The notes beneath the pieces are model-generated. The model searched no databases, was not told the DNA's origin, and saw only the letters and a program-made list of their open reading frames with translations. From Bacteroidales bacterium (GTDB taxonomy: Bacteria > Bacteroidota > Bacteroidia > Bacteroidales > WCHB1-69), in assembly GCA_031253655.1 (NCBI GenBank), contig JAIRVY010000093.1, forward strand, positions 1 through 37,532: a stretch of DNA of 37,532 bases, in the 5' to 3' direction. Positions 3,106-31,449 of the stretch are shown one piece after another; the first letter of the stretch is position 1; each line of letters starts with the position of its first letter. The translations under genes were made by a program, and so were the position numbers.

Positions 3106-4005
3106 TTACAATTTTTTCTCTAACCCTAAAATTAATTCGTTAAACCAGTCTGCGAAGATTCTTGATAATCTTCTTCTATACACCTTTCGGAAGGTATAAG
3201 CATCTGCTTTATAGTTTCTTTCAATTACTTCCGGGTGTTGAAGGGGTAAGATGGGGGCAGATTTCTTCATTAATTTTCTGATACGGCGTTTTCTCTTTTT
3301 GAATCCCACGTTGGTCACCAAGTTCACATTAGGAGAGATACACAATCCGTTGTTACGCCAAATATGATAATTGTATTGATATTCCCAATAATCTAAATTA
3401 TGTTTTCGTAACACATTATAAATTCTGTGGCAAAATATTTTCTCAATAGGATTTTGAACAAATTTATCAATGACTTTGAAAGTATTTTCGGGGTCTCCTT
3501 TAATTTCCAGACTAAAATTCCGCCAGGCTCTTTTCCAGGTGGCAAACCCCCAGATAAAAGAATAGGAAGTAAAATGGTATGAATTTTTTTGATATTTTCT
3601 TTTTCTTTCCAAATAATTTGCGCCGATGTGCATAATTTTAGGGACATCACGATATTTGTGCAACAGTTCTTCACAGTAGTGAAAAAAATCTAAGTTTGGC
3701 AGTGTATCATCAAACAACACTATCCCTTCCTCCTCCTGTTCAAATAGCCAGGAGATGGCTCGGTACACATTTTTAGATTTTCCGATATGTTCATCGTGAA
3801 ACAGGTATTTGGTTTCACATTTCCACTCCGGCATAATTACAGAACGTGTTTTCAAACAGTTTTGATAATCGGTCGGGGAGGCTCCTTTAGCGCCGTCAGC
3901 GGCTACATAAAGTTTTTCCGGCTTTAGTTTTCGTATGATTTGAAACAAGTTATGCGTTTCTTCCACACGATTATACAAAATTAAGAGAATAGGTGTTTTA
4001 AACAT
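3106..4005 (-). CDS. glycosyltransferase-like protein (nucleotide-diphospho-sugar transferase fold)
   Basis: The 299-aa product starts like a GT-A fold enzyme: 'PILLILYNRVEETHNLFQII' gives the first beta strand and the nucleotide-binding loop, followed by 'KLYVAADGAKG'. A DD pair at residues 99-100 (FDDTLPNLDFFHYC) sits where the family has its metal-binding DxD/EDD motif; the usual acidic first residue is Phe here. 'SYSFIWGFATWKRAW' is typical of HlpA-like sugar transferases found in surface-glycan clusters. No membrane segment is seen. It lies about 50 bp after rodA on the same strand, so it may be read from the cell-shape operon. Donor and acceptor are unknown. Confidence 0.65.
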   Translation of the reverse strand: MFKTPILLILYNRVEETHNLFQIIRKLKPEKLYVAADGAKGASPTDYQNCLKTRSVIMPEWKCETKYLFHDEHIGKSKNVYRAISWLFEQEEEGIVLFDDTLPNLDFFHYCEELLHKYRDVPKIMHIGANYLERKRKYQKNSYHFTSYSFIWGFATWKRAWRNFSLEIKGDPENTFKVIDKFVQNPIEKIFCHRIYNVLRKHNLDYWEYQYNYHIWRNNGLCISPNVNLVTNVGFKKRKRRIRKLMKKSAPILPLQHPEVIERNYKADAYTFRKVYRRRLSRIFADWFNELILGLEKKL

Positions 4006-28552: not shown

Positions 28553-28996
28553 ATGGATACACTTATAACAGCGGCTGTTAGTATAATAGCAGGAGCAATA
28601 ATTAGTGAGTTAATAAGATTTATGGTTCCTGTTTGGAAAAGGAAAATTAAAAGTGCGGTTCCGGAAAGGAAAAGCACAAGAGACAGGATACAGCTAAGTA
28701 TAAAGTATCCTTTTTTCATTGCGGCATACTTTTGTGTATTTAAGTATGTCTGCTTTGGCAAGTGGTTTGTGGTTTCATTCATAATAATTACGATTTTAAT
28801 GACTATTTTTATTACGTGGGATGTATTTTATTATTCGTTATTATTTGCAAGTTATGAGGCTAAAAAAGAACGGTTAGAGGATGATATCAAAAGGTGGACA
28901 CAGTACCTTGCGGATTGCAATAATAAGGATGAGACACGAAAGAAGATGATTTTAGACAAATTGGAGGCATTGAGAGTTGAGCTGAAAAAGATTTAA
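28553..28996 (+). CDS. membrane protein with C-terminal coiled coil, reversed in the late operon
   Basis: A 147-aa protein with hydrophobic segments near 4-25, 52-68 and 71-99, followed by a charged coiled coil (101-147, 'KKERLEDDIKRWTQYL', 'KKMILDKLEALRVELKKI'). It runs against the surrounding leftward late genes and has its own promoter candidate, so it behaves as an inserted moron cassette expressed in the lysogen. Its neighbour on the other strand is the nuclease-like end of the MuF protein. Superinfection exclusion, host-protection or toxin-immunity are possible; there is no sequence match to prove any. A 96-aa opposite-strand ORF overlaps it and is judged a shadow. Confidence 0.65.
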   Translation: MDTLITAAVSIIAGAIISELIRFMVPVWKRKIKSAVPERKSTRDRIQLSIKYPFFIAAYFCVFKYVCFGKWFVVSFIIITILMTIFITWDVFYYSLLFASYEAKKERLEDDIKRWTQYLADCNNKDETRKKMILDKLEALRVELKKI

Positions 28997-29035: not shown

Positions 29036-29096
29036 GTTAAAAGGAAATAGTAACAGCCTACCCCTGTAGGGTACGGAAATGGACTATTTCTTTTTT
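29036..29096 (+). ncRNA. compact two-tier hairpin RNA ending in a T run
   Basis: Outer stem GAAATAGT 29044-29051 with ACTATTTC 29083-29090 (extendable by AAG/TTT with one G.U). Inside is a second hairpin, TACCC 29059-29063 with GGGTA 29069-29073, flanked by CC/GG pairs. T run 29091-29096 follows. A promoter candidate lies just upstream. This could be an about 60-nt small RNA with its own terminator, or only a terminator of the cassette gene. The last bases overlap the end of the leftward MuF gene (its final Lys codons account for the T run). Confidence 0.4.
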
Positions 29097-30202
29097 ATTT
29101 TATCTGTCATTGAATATAAATATGCCCTACCATTCTTTAACTTGCGAACATTTAAGAACCATTCATTTTCAAGCAGTGTTACTTTATAATAGTAGAATTT
29201 ATCTACCATAGGATTTCCTTTGAAACAGTTAGCTTCGGCCACATATTCAGCATTCTTTAATACCGTATCTATTGTTCGCAGTATTTCATCTCGCGTCCAT
29301 TTATTTGGAAAAAAATCATACTGGAAATGTTCAAGACCTTTTCTGTTAAACCCTACCTGTATGGTTCCTTCGGAAGTTTTCTTTTCAATGATTACGTCCT
29401 TAAGCCTGCCAATTGCATTTTTAAGTGATTCGTTTCTTGCTATGTTATAAGTAGATTTTTCGACTTCTTCTTTTCGAGATTCACTCATTTTAAGGTAACT
29501 TGCCTTATCCGTAAAAATCTCTCCTGTTTCTGCCGGATTGCCTTCCAGCCCTGCCGGTGGCGTGTAGTTGTATGTTCCGTCTGTGGCGGGTTCGTCTGTT
29601 TCTTCCCAGTCGCATTTGCAGTTCCACAGGTTGCCGGGTTGATTCTCGCTCCAAAAGGGGTCATCTTTCGCCCATACTTTGCCCCAAAATATGCGGTGCT
29701 CTTCTCGTGGGTTTGCAGAACGTGAGGGGAGCCACTTAATATTTGGATACAGTTCGTTGCTTACCGGGTCGGCGTTAAAGTCATTCCACTGTTTTGCGGT
29801 TCTTGTGCGGGCAACTGTAGTATTATACTCTGCCACTTGGTAGCGATTAAAAGTGTTTAAAATAGCCTTTTTTATTTTAGGGTGTTCATTCTCCTGTAGC
29901 AACCGCGTGGCGTGGTAGGCTTTGAAGGCAGAGAATCGGCTCACATTCGCCTCAAGCTGCTGCTGCATATCAAAGTATCTGCTGCCGTATTCGCCGCTTT
30001 GTAATACACCGGAAACAGCTCGTTTAAGGCTTTCGCAGTAGGCACGGTACAGGTCAGTGTTAATTGTGCTGCTGTTGCCGGCTTTAATATCGGACAGTAC
30101 TTTTTCGTACAACTCCTTTTTGGTTAAGTTGTAGGGTGCGGTAAAAGTTGCCACGCACTCCATAACCTGTGATGTTGAGTTTCCGAAATAAAGAGTATCC
30201 AA
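29084..30202 (-). CDS. MuF-type minor head protein with C-terminal nuclease-like domain
   Basis: A 372-aa protein. Residues about 110-235 are MuF/gp7-like: 'PREEHRIFWGKVWAKDDPFW', 'NQPGNLWNCKCDWEETDEP', 'PAGLEGNPAETGEIFTD'. The C-terminal 275-372 is a separate domain: 'GFNRKGLEHFQYDFF', 'RDEILRTIDTVLKNAEYVAE', 'FYYYKVTLLENEWFLNVRKL', ending in a polylysine tail. This resembles the PBECR (phage Barnase-EndoU-Colicin E5/D-RelE-like) nuclease group described as fused to MuF, with H292 and R304 as candidate active residues. The start codon is TTG at 30200-30202; the frame is open upstream into the portal gene without an ATG, so the true start is uncertain. It follows the portal gene. Role: capsid assembly; the domain may be an injected effector. 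Confidence 0.75.
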   Translation of the reverse strand: MDTLYFGNSTSQVMECVATFTAPYNLTKKELYEKVLSDIKAGNSSTINTDLYRAYCESLKRAVSGVLQSGEYGSRYFDMQQQLEANVSRFSAFKAYHATRLLQENEHPKIKKAILNTFNRYQVAEYNTTVARTRTAKQWNDFNADPVSNELYPNIKWLPSRSANPREEHRIFWGKVWAKDDPFWSENQPGNLWNCKCDWEETDEPATDGTYNYTPPAGLEGNPAETGEIFTDKASYLKMSESRKEEVEKSTYNIARNESLKNAIGRLKDVIIEKKTSEGTIQVGFNRKGLEHFQYDFFPNKWTRDEILRTIDTVLKNAEYVAEANCFKGNPMVDKFYYYKVTLLENEWFLNVRKLKNGRAYLYSMTDKIKKK

Positions 30203-30231
30203 TATTTCAAGTCCGGGCGTTGGATGCGCCC

Positions 30232-31449
30232 CTATACGAAAAAATCGGGGACTGATTTCATTTCTTCTTTCATTGCCTCGTAGTTTTCAGGCTTTGGAAT
30301 ATCAAACTCCTCGTAAACAAAATCATCATCTACCGGCAACTCTTTTTTAATTCCGGCAATCACCTCCCATTTTATTTTTAGTGCGTTCCAGTCTTTTTCG
30401 GGACTTCTAAACCATATTTCGCCGCCTTGCAGGTTGAAGCCAAAGCGTTTTAAAATGGCGCGCACCTGTGTGTTGAGTAGCGAGAGGATAAATTTCTCAT
30501 CGGACTCTTTTACGCTGTCTTCACTTTCTGCGTGTACTTCGCCCAGTGAGCGCGCCCCCTTTTCGCCCTGTTCAGTAGTGAGGGTATTTCTTACAAGTAT
30601 TTTAGAAATAAAGGCATCGCATATGGCAACCAAATCCTTGTAAATCACATTTCCGGCACCGCTGTCTCCGGATATGAGATTCATTTGAGAACTTTTTGGA
30701 CGCACAAACCAGGGCGCAGCGCCCCAATTTTCATTCATTCGTACTAACGCCATGCGTGTGTCCTCGTCGAAGTCCTCGTATGTGCAATCCCTAAACGGCA
30801 TACCAAACATTTCGGCATATTGTGCCATATCGCCTAATCCGCCTCGCTTATAAATTACATACTGCGCAATTTTTGCCATTAGTCCCATTGATGTGGGGTT
30901 TCCTGTGTAAATCATGTAGCGGTTGTACGGTTCTTGAGTAAAGAGGATATCAGGTGTAATTATGGATTGCTGATAGGATATGCACTGAAATTTGCGTTCA
31001 GGGTGTACGTGTTTTCTTGGTATAAGGTCGTAATCAATGCGGTGCACTTCCTGGTCATTGTCCCACCAAATCTTATTGATTTGAATAACCGTGTATCCCC
31101 AAAGTATGGTATCCATCAGGTCGTTTATAATTTGCCGCATGTCGGGCGAACTTAACAGTTTTCCGATTAGCTCATCTTCCACGCCGTCTTTCACAAAGAG
31201 TAAATCCTTATTGAGAATATTGTCCACACGTTTTCCCCACGTGGATTCTATTTGTCCGTCTAACAGCAAATCATCGTAAAGGTCGTACAGGCGTGTTCGG
31301 ATTGGGCTTTCTTTGTTTTCAAAACTTTTAATGGCATTGCGCCAACCTTGAATATCCGTTGAAGTGCGCTGTGGCACACGTACGTCAATATTTTGTATGA
31401 CTATTGCCGGTACATTTCCGGCTTTTTTAATTCCTTTTTTCTGTTCCAT
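30232..31449 (-). CDS. DUF935 portal protein (Mu gp29-like)
   Basis: A 405-aa protein of the DUF935 family: 'NAIKSFENKESPIRTRLYDL', 'DGQIESTWGKRVDNILNKDL', 'LWGYTVIQINKIWWDN', and the conserved middle 'KRGGLGDMAQYAEMFGMPFR', then 'TLTTEQGEKGARSLGEVHAE'. It forms the dodecameric portal ring through which DNA is packaged. Its start overlaps the stop of the gp36-like gene by one base (TAATG), and MuF follows. Confidence 0.9.
   Translation of the reverse strand: MEQKKGIKKAGNVPAIVIQNIDVRVPQRTSTDIQGWRNAIKSFENKESPIRTRLYDLYDDLLLDGQIESTWGKRVDNILNKDLLFVKDGVEDELIGKLLSSPDMRQIINDLMDTILWGYTVIQINKIWWDNDQEVHRIDYDLIPRKHVHPERKFQCISYQQSIITPDILFTQEPYNRYMIYTGNPTSMGLMAKIAQYVIYKRGGLGDMAQYAEMFGMPFRDCTYEDFDEDTRMALVRMNENWGAAPWFVRPKSSQMNLISGDSGAGNVIYKDLVAICDAFISKILVRNTLTTEQGEKGARSLGEVHAESEDSVKESDEKFILSLLNTQVRAILKRFGFNLQGGEIWFRSPEKDWNALKIKWEVIAGIKKELPVDDDFVYEEFDIPKPENYEAMKEEMKSVPDFFV

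Follow-up and report, generated by a model that had tools for sequence, protein, structure and literature searches.

A polymorphic-toxin MuF protein of a Bacteroidales prophage is very probably joined to the portal protein, as a minor fusion product, by programmed -1 ribosomal frameshifting. At the portal/MuF junction of the window (the whole stretch of DNA analysed, 37,532 nucleotides of one Bacteroidales contig) lies a recoding signal that is well supported by comparison with related loci: a slippery heptamer in register ahead of the portal stop, a stem-loop downstream of it and a second frame without a conserved start codon.

Results

The MuF frame and its genomic setting

A Pfam search of the window placed the MuF frame directly 3' of a Portal_Mu gene and 5' of a gpG-like gene. 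The genes concerned are the following:

30232..31449, minus strand: Mu-type portal gene, 405 aa, frame 0, C-terminus ...SVPDFFV* (Pfam Portal_Mu PF06074, E=8.8e-65)
29084-30202, minus strand: MuF-LPD3 frame, 372 aa (ORF listing and translation)
29495..30202, minus strand: MuF core, with the linker GLEGNPAETGEIFTDKASY at its end (linker 29495-29551; PF04233 above cut-off and alignment of relatives)

The MuF core scored 33.4 bits against PF04233 in the genome search and 32.6 bits in hmmscan (cut-off 29.6 bits). The window also encodes a Mu-type transposase and a transposition ATPase, which bear out the Mu-like phage setting of the original prediction, and since these genes share the contig with chromosome-type genes, the window, on gene content, most likely carries a Mu-like transposable prophage. 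The idea of a self-standing MuF gene is not supported: the TTG taken as its start at 30202 is not conserved, and the frame carries on beyond it, in -1 register, into the portal gene, which it overlaps.

A slippery heptamer at the portal/MuF junction

The last codons of the portal gene are GAT TTT TTC GTA TAG. The -1 frame, open from T TTT TTC onwards, is that of MuF, which gives the junction these elements:

30238..30244, minus strand: slippery heptamer T TTT TTC, read (GA)T TTT TTC in the portal frame (sequence; conserved in relatives)
30232..30234, minus strand: portal stop codon TAG, 3 nt past the heptamer (sequence; spacing equal in 42/55 non-redundant relatives)
30203..30244, minus strand: MuF-frame extension FFRIGAHPTPGLEI, in the -1 frame, linking the slip site to the MuF core (translation; FFR and the open frame common to relatives)
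30215..30231, minus strand: hairpin GGGCG-CATCCAA-CGCCC, beginning 6 nt past the heptamer (folding and stem scan)

Related junctions were fetched through MuF protein similarity, independently of the slip signal. Among 105 distinct loci, MuF lies in the -1 frame relative to the portal in 82, is fused to it in frame in 5 and is apparently +1 in 7, the other 11 being truncated or unplaced. TTTTTTC or CCCTTTC stands at the junction in 49 of the 55 non-redundant loci, while the other in-frame portal positions, 19,051 in all, show neither; further heptamers count for less, since some X XXY YYZ is present at 0.5% of codon positions. The MuF frame of the relatives is open upstream, mostly via FFR, into the portal 3' end, and the codon for the first MuF-core residue is CTC, CTT, TTA or TTG, with no conserved start; in 21 of the 55 non-redundant loci the first 120 MuF codons hold no ATG whatever. 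At one locus (L018) a stop in the MuF frame lies immediately next to the heptamer, which places the shift at or after it. Both Hankyphage p00 and the antibiotic-induced phage BX-TP2 carry the signal. At the level of sequence, then, comparison supports the recoding signal, the frame relation and the lack of a conserved start.

The region past the heptamer folds. Mean folding energy in 30-nt windows is -10.3 kcal/mol directly past it, most surrounding windows lying at about -2 to -4, and stems scoring at least 8 were found at 67% of junction sites against 1.9% of control sites. In the stems that begin at +6 nt, several positions occur both as GC and as CG, some also as AT and TA, with pairing preserved; the hairpin is usually kept though its sequence differs among relatives. 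About a fifth of the junction sites have a low stem score, and the hairpin of the window is weaker than that of most relatives. A role as intrinsic terminator was considered and rejected: the T-run precedes the hairpin rather than following it, and the other strand yields an A-run.

Two other ways of making MuF have to be weighed against frameshifting. Ribosomes might reinitiate at a non-ATG codon shortly past the portal stop and so make MuF as a separate protein, the overlap being incidental; the window offers a TTG (30202) about 30 nt past that stop, as well as an ATG (Met14), public annotations set MuF starts at that place or further on, and portal and MuF are separate genes in Flavobacterium phage FPSV-S1 and in Mu. 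However, the starts annotated for p00-like phages differ by 24 nt, no start codon is conserved there, 21 of the 55 relatives lack any ATG in 120 codons, and reinitiation leaves both the heptamer and the hairpin unexplained, so that we regard it as very unlikely. The fusion could instead arise when RNA polymerase, rather than the ribosome, slips on the T-run or A-run, as the T10, A10 or A12 runs of some relatives would allow, together with three loci (L060, L083 and L070) in which a T7 run goes with an apparent +1 or -2 offset. Most sites, however, are merely T6, C CCT TTC is no homopolymer at all, and the spacing of the hairpin suits a paused ribosome; we give transcriptional slippage even less credence.

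Natural variants and wider sampling

Some relatives make the junction differently. Portal and MuF are in frame at a T10 run in L085 and at an A10 run in L037 and L062, and the PHROG family phrog_35074, 890 positions long, aligns with the portal over its first portion and with MuF over the second. At the T7 loci mentioned above, the apparent +1 (or -2) position of MuF relative to the portal may reflect either a different recoding or an indel. In L130, portal and MuF are separate genes and MuF has an ATG start. Three Porphyromonas gingivalis phages (L132, L136 and L137) retain TTTTTTC and the hairpin, with frame 0 entering MuF and the -1 frame ending after 21-26 codons. The sequences suggest that the P. 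gingivalis phages keep both products with their roles exchanged, as in dnaX.

A second sample consisted of Portal_Mu matches in genomes of the window's own class, not picked by MuF similarity. Among the 24 portals that could be placed, a heptamer combined with a long -1 frame occurs in 12 (TTTTTTC in 7) and an in-frame fusion in 5; a 937-aa open frame of doubtful placement (L177) may be a sixth. The arrangement is found in 5 of 22 portals from other classes of the phylum, all on A-runs and all in one host family. In L160, L164, L165, L166 and L167, from another class of the phylum, the portal ends in KKK on A-runs and a long -1 frame is open. Mu, D3112 and Mushuvirus have no such slip site at the junction. 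In Rhizobium phage RR1-B (L174), A AAA AAC near 3580 precedes the portal stop by 12 nt and the -1 frame is open for 520 codons, MuF being annotated to start 81 nt past that stop; the slip arrangement may accordingly extend beyond the phylum, as judged from this one sequence.

The C-terminal domain belongs to LPD3 and is predicted to adopt a BECR-type fold

Behind the MuF core lies a separate domain:

29087..29485, minus strand: exchangeable C-terminal domain, residues 240-372, of the LPD3 family with a predicted BECR-type fold (Pfam LPD3, structure model, structural matches and conservation)
29327-29329, minus strand: His292, in a helix of this domain

The original prediction had described a MuF protein fused to a separate PBECR domain. 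The fusion is confirmed; the family is not, the Pfam assignment being LPD3 (PF18798), at 27.8 bits with the tail alone and 24.9 bits with the whole protein, the latter below the curated cut-off of 27 bits. LPD3 also matches at E<=0.1 in 26 of 39 related tails. A profile search of the 372-aa protein against the PBECR families (PF18809/PF18812 and others) gave no Pfam match, such matches being weak and restricted to the tails of three relatives, and its EndoU match is weak and under its cut-off (E=0.012). The start of the domain also had to be moved, from residue 275 to near residue 240, where the swapped part begins.

An AlphaFold2 model of the tail, built from 39 aligned sequences, has a pLDDT of 94.7 and consists of helices followed by four strands. 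The GLEHF motif with His292 and the helix RDEILRTIDTVLKN are both present in the C-terminal domain as foreseen, with four strands behind the helix of His292 where three had been proposed. Searching solved structures with a profile of the aligned tails gave no match, and neither did Foldseek with the model against the PDB (E<=0.001). In a second-look structural comparison, BECR toxins head the list: 7m5f_C, a chain of a CDI toxin system (Z 5.0), and colicin D (Z 4.8), with MqsR/MqsA at 4.5, BrnT and the K. pneumoniae 342 CDI complex at 4.3 and RelE at 3.6. The Z values, none above 5.0, are modest, and a family missing from the list of this aligner is not thereby excluded. A viral structure library returned LPD3 and polyvalent phage proteins. 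The predicted tail has the layout of a BECR fold: a helix with His/Glu, then strands, with Ser/Thr in a late strand (columns 292, 364 and 366; Ser364 and Thr366 sit in the last strand). Column 292 is occupied by H in 17, E in 21 and D in 1 of the 39 aligned tails, in keeping with the weight initially placed on an aligned His292. Because the matches agree across one superfamily and column 292 admits only H, E or D, a BECR-type nuclease fold is the best reading of the model, with colicin D, CDI toxins, MqsR and RelE nearest.

MuF tails are exchanged among relatives

The tails of 78 relatives form 10 clusters. That of the window belongs to the largest, with 41 members, and several of the others resemble CdiA_C nuclease domains. 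The MuF tail of Hankyphage p00 (L129, 4080-4874) matches Gln_amidase, a glutamine-deamidase papain-fold toxin family (E=4.6e-10). L005 and L090 have cores that are 98% identical and tails without a BLAST match to each other, and L037 and L062 form a second such pair, core identity across these pairs being 96-98%. Because near-identical MuF cores bear unrelated tails, the window protein is, on sequence comparison, a MuF polymorphic-toxin protein, of a kind already known; one tail shared by all MuF proteins, which would have pointed to a structural extension, is not what the relatives have. Tail swapping and fold, like the junction signal, are thus supported by comparison. In the alignment of relatives, the linker GLxGNPAxTGxIFTD..Y (29495-29551) between core and tail is kept regardless of which tail comes next; it is a possible exchange boundary or processing site.

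One open reading frame near MuF has the position of an immunity gene:

28553..28996, plus strand (opposite to MuF): 147-aa ORF with hydrophobic stretches, between MuF and gpG (position only)

It has no PHROGs match at E<=0.001 and weak, sub-cut-off Pfam matches only; on its position it is a possible candidate immunity gene. An opposite-strand ORF behind MuF is also present in Hankyphage p00 and BX-TP2, that of Hankyphage sharing no sequence similarity with the ORF of the window. That an immunity gene generally adjoins MuF is not supported: gpG lies within 200 nt of MuF in 32 of the 55 loci having an identifiable gpG, which leaves little space for one.

That scarcity of space also bears on whether the LPD3 tail is a toxin at all. 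It could be a non-enzymatic RNA- or capsid-binding domain, as would agree with LPD3 having been named without an assigned function, with LPDs being listed as unknown in PMC5512222 and with the MuF-C domain of Mu being called inactive in the same paper. Against this, relatives replace LPD3 tails by CdiA_C-like nuclease domains, Hankyphage bears its glutamine-deamidase toxin domain in the same place, column 292 never departs from H, E or D, and Bxa, a Bacteroides MuF fusion, was shown to be antibacterial (PMC11699363). We therefore hold a non-enzymatic tail to be unlikely, though by no means negligibly so, and lean, by a small measure, towards the tail acting as an RNase.

Discussion

We propose a single coding unit made up of portal gene and MuF frame. 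Most ribosomes would halt at the portal stop and yield the 405-aa portal, while a minority would shift back by one base on T TTT TTC, aided by the hairpin 6 nt downstream, to yield portal(1-404)-RIGAHPTPGLEI-MuF-LPD3, 788 aa. A few fusion subunits would then join the portal ring and so bring MuF and the LPD3/BECR domain to the exit vertex, inside the capsid; we infer that slipping by roughly one ribosome in ten would lead to few fusion copies per 12-subunit ring. The toxin domain, most likely a metal-independent RNase whose target would be RNA of the host, would act in the newly infected cell, after release by what we guess to be cleavage near the conserved linker GLEGNPAETGEIFTD. Delivery of this domain into the host, which requires both release and injection, is put forward tentatively, at somewhat less than even chances. 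In its general form, our proposal is that in Bacteroidales Mu-like phages the -1 frameshift is a dosage device, which sets a polymorphic toxin covalently on a minority of portal subunits and gives few copies per virion, and that in the P. gingivalis phages this pair of products arises with the frames swapped; we consider this reasonably probable. In-frame fusions would put MuF on every portal subunit, which counts against a strict need for low dose.

If the proposal is true, the frameshift link sets both the position of the toxin, by fusion to the ring, and its copy number, by the slip rate, and public annotations of MuF N-termini are wrong or missing in this Bacteroidales Mu-like phage group. 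The junction arrangement is common to many Bacteroidales phages, cultured Bacteroides phages among them.

MuF polymorphic toxins, LPD3, in-frame portal-MuF genes and phage -1 frameshifting at tail chaperones are all already known. For frameshifting at the portal/MuF junction we found no account in the open-access literature, most subscription papers being outside this scope, and priority is unproven; the closest papers on MuF, portal and frameshifting concern tail chaperones or in-frame fusions, others having been judged by title.

Several known systems share part of this design: (i) Jamet 2017 (PMC5576092) describes polymorphic-toxin architecture for MuF proteins, and Alexei 2024 (PMC11699363) does so for Bacteroides and shows the MuF fusion Bxa to be antibacterial. 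The present locus resembles these in having MuF after the portal gene, exchangeable toxin-type C-terminal domains and a prophage setting, and differs in the frameshift signal to the portal, the relevant passages of both papers mentioning no frameshift, in the LPD3/BECR tail and, compared with the loci described for Bxa, in often having little room for an adjacent immunity gene. (ii) In-frame portal-MuF genes (Microbacterium phages, PMC7302621; P. gingivalis phages) likewise hold both proteins in one polypeptide, whereas they need no frame change, and the P. gingivalis slip site would shorten the product. (iii) The predicted tail shares its fold with BECR toxins (colicin D, CdiA-CT, MqsR and RelE), including a helix that bears His/Glu and a last strand that bears Ser/Thr, although it has neither a sequence match to solved structures nor a PBECR Pfam match; among phage PBECR/LPD3 domains (PMC5512222), it is LPD3 by Pfam. 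(iv) The -1 frameshift of tail chaperones (lambda gpG/gpGT; SPP1 17.5/17.5*, PMC6316719) has the same X XXY YYZ near the end of the first gene and the same short main product with a longer minor one, and the UUUUUUC predicted as the slip site of SPP1 is identical to the heptamer of the window; the genes so joined here, in contrast to those of lambda and SPP1, are the portal and MuF.
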